A stretch of 64,000 nucleotides of DNA from Dyella lutea (GTDB lineage Bacteria; Pseudomonadota; Gammaproteobacteria; Xanthomonadales; Rhodanobacteraceae), in assembly GCF_024158035.1 (NCBI RefSeq), contig NZ_JAMZEK010000001.1, positions 434,001-498,000 on the forward strand. Direction: 5' to 3'. Both the position numbers and the translations under genes were made by a program. The stretch's first letter is position 1, and the number at the start of each line of letters is the position of its first letter. Shown here in pieces: positions 1-5,051 of the stretch. Under the pieces are notes generated by a model. That model made no database searches. It worked only from the letters and a program-made list of their open reading frames with translations, and was not told the origin of the DNA.

Positions 1-486
1 GTAGGCCTGCAGCAGCTCTGCCGACAGCCGGTTCTGCTCGATCATGCCCGCATAGTGCAGCGACAGCCACGCACCACCGGCCAGCAGCAGCGCGAGGCAG
101 GCCGCCACGGCGGCGACTGTCTTCCATAGCAGCAGCCGGTGCAGCCGCTGCAGCCGTTCGATCTGTCCACCGAGCTTGAGCGCAGCGGTCTTCAGTTCGC
201 CGCCGGCACGATGCAGGCGTTGCTGGTATTCCTGCACCGGCCGTTCCAGGCCACCGCCTAGCCGGTCCATCACCAGTCCCGGCAGCGCATGCAGCGAGCC
301 ATCCGCCGATTGCCGCACGATCGCCGGCACCTGCTGGCTCAACCGCTCCAGCTCGCCCGAATGCGTACGCAGGCGCTGTTCGATCTCCCCGCAGCGGCGG
401 TCGAACTGCTCCATCAGCATGGCGGTCTTGCTGATCAGGCTGGCGACCTCGGCCGTCTGCAGAGGGCCCGGTGCAGACGCGCTCAT
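1..486 (-). CDS. Hypothetical coiled-coil membrane protein (3' end outside window)
   Basis: The frame is open from an ATG at 486 to the window edge, giving 162 residues with no stop. The N-terminal ~120 residues are hydrophilic and rich in Glu, Gln, Arg and Leu (for example EQFDRRCGEIEQRLRTH), suggesting a coiled coil. A hydrophobic stretch near residues 124-148 (LLLWKTVAAVAACLALLLAGG) looks like one membrane span. Its ATG overlaps the stop of the DUF2235 gene by four bases (ATGA), so the two are translationally coupled. I do not recognise a named family. The coupling suggests a membrane accessory or partner of the hydrolase, which is inference. Confidence 0.7.
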   Translation of the reverse strand, partial: MSASAPGPLQTAEVASLISKTAMLMEQFDRRCGEIEQRLRTHSGELERLSQQVPAIVRQSADGSLHALPGLVMDRLGGGLERPVQEYQQRLHRAGGELKTAALKLGGQIERLQRLHRLLLWKTVAAVAACLALLLAGGAWLSLHYAGMIEQNRLSAELLQAY

Positions 487-1895
487 CGCTGCCAGCCCTG
501 GGATGGAATGATCGGAAGATCGGGCCTTTGCGGCGGCGATTCGCGTGTCTGCATCTGGTTGTCCACCGTCGTGCGGGCCTCCTGGCGCAATGCCTGGCCC
601 GGATCCATGGCCGCGAAGCGTTCGGTCCCTTGCCGAAAACCCGACCAGTCGTTTGCCCGTGCGGACGCGAGCATGCGATCGACCTCGTCGGATACAGCCT
701 GCGCCTGGGGGCCGACGGAGGTCGTGGGCGAGCCGGGTACCGGGCCATCCGGCATCGGTTGGCGCGGGTAGCGGGCGTTGATCGTCTCGTCGCGTGGTTC
801 GTTGTTGAACGGGTCGGCGACCTTGCCGATATCGCGGCGAGGCACCAGCAGTTCGCGATACCCCTCCGGCTTGAGCCGGTCGACCTTCGGCGTGATGCGA
901 TAGATGAACATCCCTTCTTCGGATCGGTGGACCACGTTGAGGCGCGGATCGTCCGGTTCAGGCAGCTTGGTCAGGAATGGCTGGTCACTGAGGCCGTTGA
1001 GATAGTCGATCACCAGGTTGCCGGCCCGGTTGGAGAGACCATTGCGGTGGTAGCCACCGCCCACGTCGGAGTGCGCCCCCGGCACGTAGATGCCGGCGAA
1101 GCGGCCATCCGGGGTGATGCCCGGATCGATGATGTGGTCGGACTTGAATAGCCAGCGTCGCTCGTCCGTCGCCGTCAGCTGGAAGCCGGAGATCACCGTC
1201 GGCGGCAGCCGTCGGTCATCGTTGCGCACCTCGCTGCCGGTACCGACCGGGTCCATCAAAGCCACCGCCTGGGCGACCTGGCCGGGTGGAACCAGCGGAG
1301 GAAGAGTGTATTCGACGTGCTTCACCAGTCCGTCGGAGGTGTAGGTGTATTTCGCACCAGCAGGGTTCTGGATGCCGCGCTCATGCACCAGGCGCGCAAA
1401 GATCGCGACCTCATCAGCTCCCCGGCTGAAGCCGATCTCCGCGATGCTGATCTGAGCATCGGGATCTCGCTGCTTGGTACGCCAAGCGAAGTCGGTGAAT
1501 TTCTTGTACATCGTCTCCGCCCGCTGCTCGGCGGTATAGCCATCGGCTCCGTCCAACGCACTGCGGAGCCAACTCTGCTGCGTACCAGGTCCCGCCACGT
1601 ACCCAGCCGCGATATGGCTGGAGCGTTGGTCGGCCCCCTGGCTAATCTGCTGAACGATCTTGGCGACATTGGTCTTGTGCTCGGGATCCGCCGCGGCGTC
1701 ATTCCCGGTGCCGTCCATGCCGGCCACGAAAAGATATTGATGGGGCTTACCCGCGCACACGAAGACCGGCTCATCGAAAGGAGCTATCCCCAGCCGGGCC
1801 GCCTCGTACGTTGCCAGCCGCGTTGTGTCCGCTGGATAGAAGGGTGAACCATCCCCGAGGATGCTATCAGCCTGCAACTTGTGTTTCTCAGCCAT
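483..1895 (-). CDS. DUF2235 alpha/beta hydrolase, probable T6SS/T4SS-type phospholipase effector
   Basis: 470 aa. It carries the DUF2235 signature: DGTGND (61-66), the nucleophile elbow GFSRGA (Ser157), an acidic residue in ALMDPVG (Asp215) and GAHSDVGGGY (His275), an intact Ser-Asp-His-like set. DUF2235 includes Tle-type phospholipase effectors delivered by type VI secretion in Proteobacteria, and related proteins in Xanthomonadaceae. There is no signal peptide, as expected for an injected effector. About 110 residues follow the catalytic domain, ending in a Gln/Pro-rich tail (DNQMQTRESPPQRPDLP) that could be a delivery region; I could not confirm an XVIPCD-type domain. The start has a GGGAG ribosome binding site. 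The lipoprotein gene begins upstream and the coiled-coil membrane gene overlaps downstream. No secretion apparatus gene is in the window. Confidence 0.85.
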   Translation of the reverse strand: MAEKHKLQADSILGDGSPFYPADTTRLATYEAARLGIAPFDEPVFVCAGKPHQYLFVAGMDGTGNDAAADPEHKTNVAKIVQQISQGADQRSSHIAAGYVAGPGTQQSWLRSALDGADGYTAEQRAETMYKKFTDFAWRTKQRDPDAQISIAEIGFSRGADEVAIFARLVHERGIQNPAGAKYTYTSDGLVKHVEYTLPPLVPPGQVAQAVALMDPVGTGSEVRNDDRRLPPTVISGFQLTATDERRWLFKSDHIIDPGITPDGRFAGIYVPGAHSDVGGGYHRNGLSNRAGNLVIDYLNGLSDQPFLTKLPEPDDPRLNVVHRSEEGMFIYRITPKVDRLKPEGYRELLVPRRDIGKVADPFNNEPRDETINARYPRQPMPDGPVPGSPTTSVGPQAQAVSDEVDRMLASARANDWSGFRQGTERFAAMDPGQALRQEARTTVDNQMQTRESPPQRPDLPIIPSQGWQR

Positions 1896-1914
1896 TCCTT
1901 GGCTCCCTGCTCAG

Positions 1915-2511
1915 TCAGTACGTGTGAGTCCAGGCCAGCACGACATCATCTCGGCCATTGCTATAGGGATTTCCGGGAATCTGCAGATGTTGCGTAGGGA
2001 TGAGGGCCTTCATGTACACGTTGATGGTCCGATCGTTGACCTCCAGGAAAATGCTGGGATCGAGGAATAGCCCCTGTGGATAGAGGTCGGCCGGAATCTC
2101 CCGGTCCGGCACCCGATACAAAACTTGCTCGTTCCGGAAAATCTCACCGATATCGACGGTTGCTTCATGACTGCTGCCATCCAGGGATACCCAGGACACG
2201 CGGGCAGGCGGCGGAAAATTCCGGATGCCCGCATAGGACGCGAAATTCCAGTGCTCTCGATAGTCGGAAGAGGGCGGTGGACCCGTTGGGCTATCGACCG
2301 GTTCCGGTGCGAACTCTTGGTTTACATAAATGATCCGGCAGCTTCGGGTGTTGTAGACCTTGGCGTCGAAATCGTGGGCTTTGAACCGCAACGGCAGCAG
2401 ATTGCCGTTGACCACGTGTTGTGCGACGGGCGTGTTGGACATGGCGTGGGTGCACCCGGAAAGGGGGAGAAGGGCAAAGCATGCGGCAAATACACGGGAG
2501 AGGTTCGACAA
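1915..2511 (-). CDS. Lipoprotein partner of the DUF2235 hydrolase (candidate immunity protein)
   Basis: I place the start at a TTG (2511), which has AAGGAG nine bases upstream and yields a lipoprotein signal: NLSRVFAACFALLPLSGC with lipobox LSGC. The mature ~180 residues are predicted to be periplasmic and anchored by the lipidated Cys. An upstream in-frame ATG (2757) would add ~80 residues of non-coding character and hide the signal. The body (RFKAHDFDAKVYNTRSC, EHWNFASYAG, DIGEIFRNEQVLYRVPD) resembles the DUF3304-like lipoproteins that often accompany DUF2235 effectors, but the assignment is from memory. It ends 19 bp before the hydrolase start, so one operon is likely. A periplasmic lipoprotein next to a predicted phospholipase effector suggests immunity; this is inferred from gene order. 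Confidence 0.65.
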   Translation of the reverse strand: MSNLSRVFAACFALLPLSGCTHAMSNTPVAQHVVNGNLLPLRFKAHDFDAKVYNTRSCRIIYVNQEFAPEPVDSPTGPPPSSDYREHWNFASYAGIRNFPPPARVSWVSLDGSSHEATVDIGEIFRNEQVLYRVPDREIPADLYPQGLFLDPSIFLEVNDRTINVYMKALIPTQHLQIPGNPYSNGRDDVVLAWTHTY

Positions 2512-2753
2512 GCGGCTTGGCTCCTTCGTGTCTTGCCTCCGTGGTCGCAAGGAAAGCGAACCTGGCGAGAAGGTGCCCGACGAGCAGGCCGGTCTGGGAG
2601 GGAGCGATGCGCGAATCCACCCCGATCCCTGGCTCGCGGTAGCCTCGATCCCGGACACGCAGGTGTGCGACACACGATCCGGAACATCCGGCATTTCAAT
2701 GGACCTCGCTTGCGTGGCCGCCGTCGGCGCCCAGCCTGTGGAACGGCAGGATT

Positions 2754-3653
2754 TCACGTGCCCTCCTCCTCCGAACGATGCACCACGTTCATCCGCGGGT
2801 CGTCCGGCTCGGGCTGCTCGCTGAGCAGTGGCGTGGTGCTGAGCCGATTGATGTATTCGATCAGCAGGTTCGCTGCGCGCGTGGAGAGACCATTCAGGCG
2901 GTAGCCGCCGCAGACATCCGAAAGCGAACCGGGAACCGGCAGGCTGAGGAAGCGTCCGTCGCTCGAGCGGCCTTTGCCGAGGATCGGCAGCGACTGGAAA
3001 TCAGGGCGTTGCTCGTCCGTCGCGCTGAGCTGGAAGCCGGAAATCACCGAGGAGGGCAGGCGCAGCTCTGGCGGCAGATAGCCGGTAGGGGCCAACAGGG
3101 CAAGAGCCTGGGCTGTCCGGTGCGGTGGCACAAGAACTTCACCTGTGGGGGAATGCAACCCCAGCACGTCGACCATCATCGTGAACTCGGCGCCCTGCAG
3201 GGCGCCCCAGCTGCCACCGACGATCAGCAGGCTGATCCGGGCGTCGGGGTCCTCCCTGAGCCACGCTTCCGACCGCACCGAGAGCTGCTTGTACATGGCG
3301 GCAAGCCGGGTGCCGGCAAACGCTTCGCCATGCTTGTCCAGGGTCAGCCAATTGTCGTGGGCGCAGTCGGTGCTTACGTAACCGGTGCCAATCGACTTGG
3401 GCGCCGTACCCCGGATCAGCTGCTGGTGGATCCAGGCTACGGTGGTGGGCTCGGTGGGTCCCTTGCGCGCCTGTTTCCAGCTGCAATCGAACAGCGCAAC
3501 GAAAAGACGATCGTGGGCGCCCGGCGTCGATGACGTCGACACCGGGCGGGTGGCACGCGTCGGTATCACCGGCGCGGTTGCGGCCTGCGACCGGATCGGC
3601 AGCCATCCGGTCATGGCCAGCAGTAGGGCGAGCGCTGCGTGCTTCCTTGGCAT
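2754..3653 (-). CDS. Secreted, catalytically degenerate and truncated DUF2235 paralogue
   Basis: 299 aa from an ATG with a GGGAG ribosome binding site. A Sec-type signal peptide (residues 1-25, ALALLLAMTGWLPIRSQAA) marks it as exported, unlike its paralogue at 483-1895. The two share long blocks (SSVISGFQLSATDEQ, the PEPDDPRMNVVHRSEE region), so they are related by duplication. Here DGTGND has become FDCSWK (55-60), the acidic residue is lost (ALLAPTG, Ala188) and the His of GAHSD is Leu244 (GSLSD). Only the Ser of GGSWGA (Ser148) remains. It ends right after VVHRSEE, where the paralogue continues for ~150 residues. It is either a decaying copy or a pseudoenzyme recruited as a periplasmic binding partner. 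Confidence 0.75.
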   Translation of the reverse strand: MPRKHAALALLLAMTGWLPIRSQAATAPVIPTRATRPVSTSSTPGAHDRLFVALFDCSWKQARKGPTEPTTVAWIHQQLIRGTAPKSIGTGYVSTDCAHDNWLTLDKHGEAFAGTRLAAMYKQLSVRSEAWLREDPDARISLLIVGGSWGALQGAEFTMMVDVLGLHSPTGEVLVPPHRTAQALALLAPTGYLPPELRLPSSVISGFQLSATDEQRPDFQSLPILGKGRSSDGRFLSLPVPGSLSDVCGGYRLNGLSTRAANLLIEYINRLSTTPLLSEQPEPDDPRMNVVHRSEEEGT

Positions 3654-3880: not shown

Positions 3881-4273
3881 ATGGTTTCCAGTCCGCAAGC
3901 GGCGATCCTGCCCCTGGCCGGTCTCGGCGGCCCGGCCCTGCGCAGTTTTTTCCGGCTGGCCGAGGTTTGGAAGCTGCGCGTGGCAGAGCAGCGCAGGTTG
4001 CTGGGTGATCCGCCGGAGTCCACCTTCTACAAGTGGAAGCGCGAGCAGGAAGGCAGCCCCGGGCGCGACGTGATCGAGCGGATCAGCTACCTGCTGGGCA
4101 TCTTCAAGGCGCTGCAGATCCTGTTTCCCGATCCGGCACAGGCCGACGCCTGGTTGCGCCGGCCGAACCAGGCGGCGCTGTTCGGCGGCCAGTCGGCGCT
4201 GGAGCGGATGCTGTCGGGCAACGTGGCCGACCTGTTCGTGGTGCGCCAGTACCTGGATGCGCAGCGCGGCTGA
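3881..4273 (+). CDS. Antitoxin of the Xre/MbcA/ParS family
   Basis: 130 aa. The N-terminal half has a helix-turn-helix-like region (RVAEQRRLLGDPPESTFYKWKRE). The C-terminal half is the MbcA/ParS/Xre toxin-binding domain (DUF2384): ISYLLGIFKALQILFPDP, then ADAWLRRPNQAALFGGQSALERML. In RES-Xre systems this protein binds the toxin, blocks its active site and represses the operon. The ATG follows AGGA at a suitable distance. It is directly upstream of the RES-domain gene on the same strand. Confidence 0.9.
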   Translation: MVSSPQAAILPLAGLGGPALRSFFRLAEVWKLRVAEQRRLLGDPPESTFYKWKREQEGSPGRDVIERISYLLGIFKALQILFPDPAQADAWLRRPNQAALFGGQSALERMLSGNVADLFVVRQYLDAQRG

Positions 4274-4361
4274 GGCTCGTCGCGGCGCCGGTCGCGACCG
4301 GGGAGACGCCGCGCCGCCAGGCTATCCACCTTCCTCCACGAACCCTCAGCCGAGCGCCGAC

Positions 4362-5051
4362 GTGACCGCCGAGACGCCCCCGATCAAGCGCATCCGCTGG
4401 AACCATGCCTATCGCATCGTGCCCAGCCGCTTTCCCCCGGTCGGGCTGTTCGACCGCATCGCCGATCCGGCCGATCTCGACGCGGTCTTCGCCATCGAGG
4501 CACTGACCAATCCGCGTCTGCGCGAGGAGGCCGACGCCCTGAAGCTGGTGCCGAAGACGCGCCGGATCAGCGGCCCCGGCAGCACGCCGGTGATGGCCGC
4601 GTTCACTCACCTCAATCCGGAGGGCAGCCGCTTCTCCGACGGCAGCTGGGGCGTGTTCTATGCCGGGCACAGCGTGGCCACGGCGGTGGAGGAAACCGTG
4701 TATCACCGCGAGCGCTTCCTTGCGGCGACGGCCGAGCCGCCCTGCGAGATCCCCATGCGCTGCTACCGCACCAGCATCACCGGTCGACTGCACGATCTGC
4801 GTGGCGGCTGGCCGCAGATGCACGATGCCCGCGACTACACCGCCAGCGTGGCGCTGGCGCGCTCGCTGCGCGAAGGTGGCTCCAACGGCATCGTCTACGA
4901 CAGCGTGCGTCATCGGGGCGGCGAGTGCGCGGCAGTGTTCTATCCCGACCTGCTCGCGCCCTGCGTGCAGTCCGAGCATCTCGTTTATCGCTGGGACGGC
5001 CGGCGCATTGTCACGGTGCTCAGGGTGTCCGAACTGCCCCGCGCGCGTTAG
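4362..5051 (+). CDS. RES-family NAD+-degrading toxin
   Basis: 229 aa from a GTG. The RES domain is visible: HAYRIVPSRF with Arg18, GVFYAGHSVATAVEETVYH with Glu110, and SNGIVYDSVRH with Ser181 give the Arg-Glu-Ser set. RES toxins degrade NAD+ and stop growth until neutralised by the Xre partner. An alternative ATG at 4257 would overlap the antitoxin by 17 bp and add 35 low-complexity residues. I prefer the GTG because the protein then begins just before the conserved IRWNHAYRIVPSR block, although its ribosome binding site is weak. Confidence 0.88.
   Translation: MTAETPPIKRIRWNHAYRIVPSRFPPVGLFDRIADPADLDAVFAIEALTNPRLREEADALKLVPKTRRISGPGSTPVMAAFTHLNPEGSRFSDGSWGVFYAGHSVATAVEETVYHRERFLAATAEPPCEIPMRCYRTSITGRLHDLRGGWPQMHDARDYTASVALARSLREGGSNGIVYDSVRHRGGECAAVFYPDLLAPCVQSEHLVYRWDGRRIVTVLRVSELPRAR

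Follow-up and report, generated by a model that had tools for sequence, protein, structure and literature searches.

The locus described here raises the question of why a bacterium would maintain an exported, catalytically dead copy of an effector domain next to the intact effector. It lies in a stretch of 64,000 nucleotides (the window) from the 4.4 Mb genome of Dyella lutea, assembled in 8 contigs and compared here with its genus in a set of four genomes, G000 to G003, of which G001 is Dyella ginsengisoli LA-4. Dyella are environmental bacteria. Four genes follow each other on the minus strand of the window: the dead paralogue (S), a lipoprotein gene (Lp), an intact DUF2235/Tle1-like hydrolase gene (E) and, as the fourth gene of the operon, D, which encodes a protein of about 190 residues (197 aa) and whose start overlaps the E stop (Table 1). 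The answer we favour, with a probability of roughly 0.38, is that S putatively protects its producer, acting in the cell's own periplasm as a disarmed copy that competes with E or captures it.

S shares 42% identity with E. As the first-pass annotation of this DNA had claimed, the paralogue starts with a predicted signal peptide, the hydrophobic N-terminus MPRKHAALALLLAMTGWLPIRSQA|A, which reaches a hydropathy of 2.36 (peptide and cleavage site read by eye). The intact protein E would have none, also as claimed, because the best 10-residue hydropathy in its first 35 residues is only 0.23. The loss of the DGTGND motif and of the acidic residue and the His of the catalytic set, likewise announced, was borne out when S was scored against 17 E sequences: the loop at E positions 61-66 reads DCSWKQ, D215 is replaced by A188 and H275 by L244. 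Further changes affect the GPGT loop (102-105) and R158, which has become W149. Altogether, 33 of the 90 near-invariant E columns are lost in S, active-site loops among them, and 57 are kept; the nucleophile serine of the GxSxG motif is retained (GGSWG). The stop at a conserved block boundary is equally real, since the end of S, VVHRSEEEGT, is the end of the E catalytic block, beyond which E has 138 more C-terminal residues. S alone gave no Pfam match at E≤1, and it matches the relatives of E with E-values down to 7.7e-47, far beyond chance. Its predicted structure is a Tle1 fold with the core kept, as judged from the model and a fold search, so that, as a member of the DUF2235/Tle1 family, S has the fold and lacks the catalytic residues.

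Such a gene could be taken for the decaying remains of an earlier effector that the Lp-E pair displaced. Comparable debris exists: a 73 aa N-terminal fragment of E immediately precedes an intact Lp-E-D set (L144:6099-6320, plus strand), short fragments occur near other effectors in L081 and L090, and the arrays of Vibrio cholerae carry truncated effectors beside orphan immunity genes (PMC8189183). However, the frame of S is intact in three of the four genomes of the genus, three species having neither stop nor frameshift, and the ratio of nonsynonymous to synonymous substitution rates (dN/dS) is 0.17 in the domain (30 synonymous, 15 nonsynonymous changes) versus 0.98 in the linker, an internal control resting on 9 changes (3 synonymous, 6 nonsynonymous); the signal peptide gives 0.19, on 3 changes only. 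With the frame kept and the domain under purifying selection, S is not in decay, and these codon counts rule out a pseudogene. Moreover, decay would not provide a gene with a signal peptide, and we regard this explanation as very improbable. The first-pass annotation had named absence or random degradation of S in close relatives as grounds for giving up its decoy idea; degradation is contradicted by the constraint, and absence holds in part, as S is missing in G003 and was found in one genus only.

The distribution of the four genes is uneven. G000 and G001 carry the complete S-Lp-E-D set and G003 has Lp-E-D without S, whereas G002 keeps an intact S and a truncated D, with no E and no Lp found; E occurs in all three remaining species. 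No other S was detected among 147 relatives (the rest being E-like), 233 genomes of the family Rhodanobacteraceae and 398 drawn from the order, in searches judged by frame lengths and fetched loci, which could miss dead full-length copies, nor among named genome contigs beyond that of G001, a set that may omit near relatives. The conserved order of effector, lipoprotein and truncated paralogue that had been suggested is therefore not widespread; what is conserved is Lp-E, often with D. A candidate third truncated copy (L142, genome G498, 358 aa) turned out to be a frameshifted E with intact motifs.

The common strand and the order S-Lp-E-D in G000 and G001, together with a search between S and Lp that found no terminator-like site, would suit an operon helper that holds Lp or E in the producer until delivery, or that regulates their expression. 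On the other hand, 242 bases separate S from the likely Lp start, G003 has Lp-E-D without S, G002 keeps S without Lp-E, and S is nearly identical beside two different Lp alleles, all of which makes a helper unlikely, if less so than a remnant. The persistence of S in G002, where E and Lp are absent, is the behaviour of an orphan immunity gene, and it is for this reason that we liken its possible protective role to orphan immunity.

The alleles just mentioned come from a replacement within the locus. Between G000 and G001, DNA identity drops to 59-63% in the central part of Lp and in E up to residue ~150; it is 77-79% at the Lp ends and 73-80% in the S-Lp spacer, versus 87-99% in S, the remaining E and D (S itself, 91-99%). 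G003 agrees with the allele of G000 across Lp (87-91%) and from E residue ~50 to ~150 (86-87%), and its first ~50 E residues differ from both G000 and G001 (65%). A joint switch of Lp and much of the E N-terminus is as expected if Lp recognises that part of E; adjacency alone would equally produce it, and the first ~50 E residues break the pattern. As S is nearly the same beside both Lp/E alleles, a match between S and either Lp or the variable E region is improbable, and a pairing of S with Lp is further disfavoured by G002, which keeps S without Lp or E. When the window is set against L034, the replacement is seen on the minus strand at 1440-2490, over Lp and the first ~150 E residues, with conserved flanks.

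Indifference to the Lp/E alleles and retention without E and Lp in G002 would also be seen if S had taken on an envelope role that has nothing to do with E, such as that of a periplasmic pseudoenzyme binding lipids or proteins, the present location of S being just its birthplace. We consider such a function nearly as likely as protection. A long stem (2.73 changes per column) leads to the S clade, and the constraint that comes after it is strong, as in a gene whose function has changed. Against it, S still lies beside Lp-E in G000 and G001, searches of Pfam and NCBIfam gave no hint of another function and nothing matched in PADLOC, and a separate dead DUF2235 copy has arisen beside Lp-E in another genus. 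This second copy (L037:7766-8935, plus strand), located upstream of Lp-Lp-E, has its nucleophile Ser replaced by Gly and DGTGN turned into DGAEN, and its homology stops at the same boundary as that of S, with two hydrophobic segments following (by eye). Joining it with S in one lineage was rejected (approximately unbiased test, p 0.0006), so the L037 copy arose separately; placing S as sister to the E of its own genus was not rejected (p 0.06).

E and Lp look like an effector-immunity pair, and an antagonism module is well supported. E matches PF09994 (E 3.4e-19, 69.7 bits against a cut-off of 27) and its motifs GFSRG, DPVGTG and PGAHSDVGGGY are intact, as in a true DUF2235/Tle1-like protein; to the GxSxG, Asp and His of these motifs we presumably can ascribe the catalytic roles. 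A lipoprotein gene does lie between E and S, with a corrected start: the open reading frame (ORF) 1915-2757 is merely the longest open frame of Lp, and its likely start is a TTG at 2511, preceded by AAGGAG and followed by an LSGC lipobox (assigned by eye). Among Lp relatives, the methionine right behind this lipobox, Met24, hardly varies, and it aligns with the first residue of signal-less Lp forms in L037 and L021. For the wider comparison, part of the matches from the family and order searches were fetched as loci, and 53 E genes whose catalytic block is almost complete, including one fused and two frameshifted genes, were compiled from the scanned loci. In 50 of the 53, Lp precedes E by no more than 30 bases, which is the gene position of an X-Tfi, and five E loci carry two or three Lp genes. 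An XVIPCD, the domain for T4SS export, ends 12 of the 53 E proteins according to a local profile, and PF20410 (XVIPCD) was matched in six of eight longer E relatives, picked mainly by length and including the dead L037 copy. Adjacency, multiple Lp genes and XVIPCD in longer relatives sustain the effector/immunity reading and the antagonism module that had been proposed. In five loci (L067, L056, L049, L153 and L157), two or three lipoprotein genes are grouped around a single E gene or a pair of them, reminiscent of immunity genes in a stack, and in L157 two of them lie behind E.

The pair resembles the effectors (X-Tfe) and immunity proteins (X-Tfi) of the bactericidal type IV secretion system (T4SS) of Xanthomonadales. 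In the accessible part of their review, DUF2235 is listed among the X-Tfe domains, X-Tfi genes usually lie upstream of the effector and encode lipoproteins where the effector is active in the periplasm, and a cytosolic X-Tfi form is suggested to be made from a second start codon behind the lipobox (PMC6536674). The directly upstream Lp gene, its possible internal start after the lipobox and the DUF2235 domain of E recall these features, which, with the adjacency, the XVIPCD relatives and the T4SS genes of the same genome, are the reasons why E-Lp is taken as a pair. In contrast, E ends in another C-terminal module, with D as partner gene, and that part of the X-Tfe/X-Tfi account describes no counterpart of S (PMC6536674).

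The reading of S that explains the most is protection. E would be an antibacterial phospholipase-like effector of that bactericidal T4SS kind and Lp its lipoprotein immunity protein. S would be an old copy of the E catalytic domain, stripped of the C-terminal module and of its catalytic loops and provided with a Sec signal peptide. Its address would thereby have changed from the other cell to the own envelope, placing a disarmed toxin domain in the periplasm of the producer, where S might bind E, incoming or leaked, at its conserved half or might occupy the docking partner of E. Protection of this type would be independent of the Lp/E allele present. The periplasmic location, the binding and the protection are what we infer from sequence, and the decoy idea is plausible, for S itself within one genus.

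Several observations weigh against protection by S. The gene was found in a single genus, in three of its four genomes, and the L037 copy, known from one genome and without a signal peptide, is a hint only. Across 27 loci, 25 ORFs were treated as other effectors, and none of them has a neighbour like S. Private changes in the D remnant of G002 number just 3 synonymous and 2 nonsynonymous, so few that E-Lp may have been lost recently and the constraint on S may be mostly older, which weakens the orphan argument. Regarding delivery, for which the T4SS is a putative route, E itself lacks the X-Tfe terminus, with no PF20410 match at E≤1, and its genome also has the type VI secretion system (T6SS) gene TssC. 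As for neighbours in general, four of the 25 ORFs have a self-similar one, two of them in a single tandem array and two with the short fragments of L081 and L090. The array (L079:2464-7111, plus strand) consists of three effector-like paralogues, 30-50% alike, the last followed by D.

How an effector without XVIPCD may reach the T4SS is a question for D, whose conserved end carries two invariant cysteines and which gave only a weak PHROGs match (E 0.0095). D stands directly behind 30 of the 41 E genes without an XVIPCD match and behind none of the 12 with one, four XVIPCD-bearing E genes in short loci having been rechecked for it. The 11 exceptions without D include the frameshifted or fused L038, L058 and L142 and the short E genes of another family in L147-L149. 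L038 (8099-9175, minus strand) is a natural fusion in which the E catalytic part runs into the final residues of D, as an internal deletion would produce. A further 22 D genes were picked from the matches to D, in 21 loci away from E; for 14 of them, the end of the ORF directly upstream matches the E module, and one of the 14, L060, was itself detected through this match. Ten such module proteins were scanned: three carry a peptidoglycan-binding domain (one also GH19), two carry a class-3 lipase domain and five showed nothing above the cut-off. In L060 and L077-L095, D follows diverse effector-like genes without XVIPCD that have a common C-terminal module, and in many E relatives this module contains a glutamine-rich tail.

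At the genome level, D occurs in 58 of the 233 family genomes, and XVIPCD is present in 52 of these 58 versus 22 of the 175 without D, counts that, like those for TssC, ignore the kinship of genomes. A VirB10-family gene is present in four of the six D genomes without an XVIPCD match and missing from the other two. TssC is found in 38 of the 58 D-positive versus 55 of the 175 D-negative genomes (and in 37 of 53 with E versus 56 of 180 without); within XVIPCD-positive genomes, D is independent of it (34/52 versus 15/22). The genome of the window encodes VirB3, VirB4, VirB6 and VirD4-like genes and the VirB10 family, and PF20410 matched at six places in it, one of them within a 114-aa frame, as in a genome with the bactericidal T4SS and its XVIPCD effectors. 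Because D stands behind non-XVIPCD E genes only and tracks XVIPCD genomes, it may be a T4SS adaptor, and the data suggest this role for effectors without XVIPCD; T6SS delivery of E is disfavoured. According to PMC10432156, Oka et al. 2022 had put forward a further, as yet unidentified T4SS adaptor, and D is a testable candidate for it. That S is a toxin-made periplasmic decoy working across alleles and as an orphan, and that D is at the same time a dedicated membrane adaptor for module-marked non-XVIPCD effectors, is a rather doubtful combination.

Other known systems are instructive by likeness and difference. The Tle1 phospholipases of the T6SS and their Tli immunity proteins occur in DUF4123-DUF3304-DUF2235 trios (PMC13055248). 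The catalytic family is shared, the best sequence and fold matches being Tle1-type structures (9j3f, 4o5p and 6sjl/6ski), but Lp gave no DUF3304 match at E≤1 and only a sub-cut-off match in NCBIfam, and D is unrelated to TssC within XVIPCD-positive genomes. A T6SS cargo gene of this kind would have a DUF4123 adaptor, a DUF3304 immunity gene or VgrG beside it; for the present locus, neighbouring ORFs within 18.5 kb were listed and part of them scanned. Protection by orphan immunity genes (PMC10470768) and dual immunity, such as that of Tdi5a/Tdi5b, have been reported, although in the accessible parts of these accounts the immunity proteins are not described as dead toxin copies (PMC13392607 for dual immunity). 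S resembles both in being a second protein beside one toxin, kept toxin-less in G002. A parallel from far outside bacteria is vipoxin, which comes from snake venom and belongs to a protein family unrelated to DUF2235. There, an inactive phospholipase A2 homologue is thought to regulate the active toxic one (PMC13414281). The shared trait is a dead homologue beside a toxic phospholipase, an analogy of working only; vipoxin is one complex. No published case of a dead toxin serving as immunity turned up in a search at the level of listings, which does not prove that there is none.

Xanthomonas citri can do without immunity proteins against sister cells, and what protects it there is unexplained (PMC10933484); S is a testable candidate for protection of this sort. 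If S does protect, dead toxin copies, usually taken for remnants, would merit a second look.

Table 1. Features of the S-Lp-E-D locus, in window positions
Feature	Position	Strand	Remarks
S, exported catalytically dead paralogue of effector E, 299 aa	2754..3653	-	
S residues 1-24, predicted Sec signal peptide	3582..3653	-	hydropathy; cleavage site inferred by eye
S residues 25-46, linker	3516..3581	-	constraint undetectable; predicted local distance difference test score (pLDDT) low over most of the linker
S residues 47-299, dead Tle1-like alpha/beta-hydrolase domain	2757..3515	-	
Lp, lipoprotein, probable immunity protein, X-Tfi-like	about 1915..2511	-	start codon inferred
Lp Met24, possible internal start of cytosolic form	2440..2442	-	near-invariant column
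E, DUF2235/Tle1-like hydrolase, predicted effector, 470 aa	483..1895	-	PF09994; catalytic set intact
E residues 333-470, C-terminal module, proposed delivery tag	486..899	-	profile matches; absent from S
D, coiled coil and one transmembrane segment (by eye)	1..486	-	108 bases more beyond the window

Beside S, and divergent from it, the plus strand at 3881-5051 carries a pair formed by an Xre-type antitoxin (PF09722) and a RES-domain toxin (PF08808).

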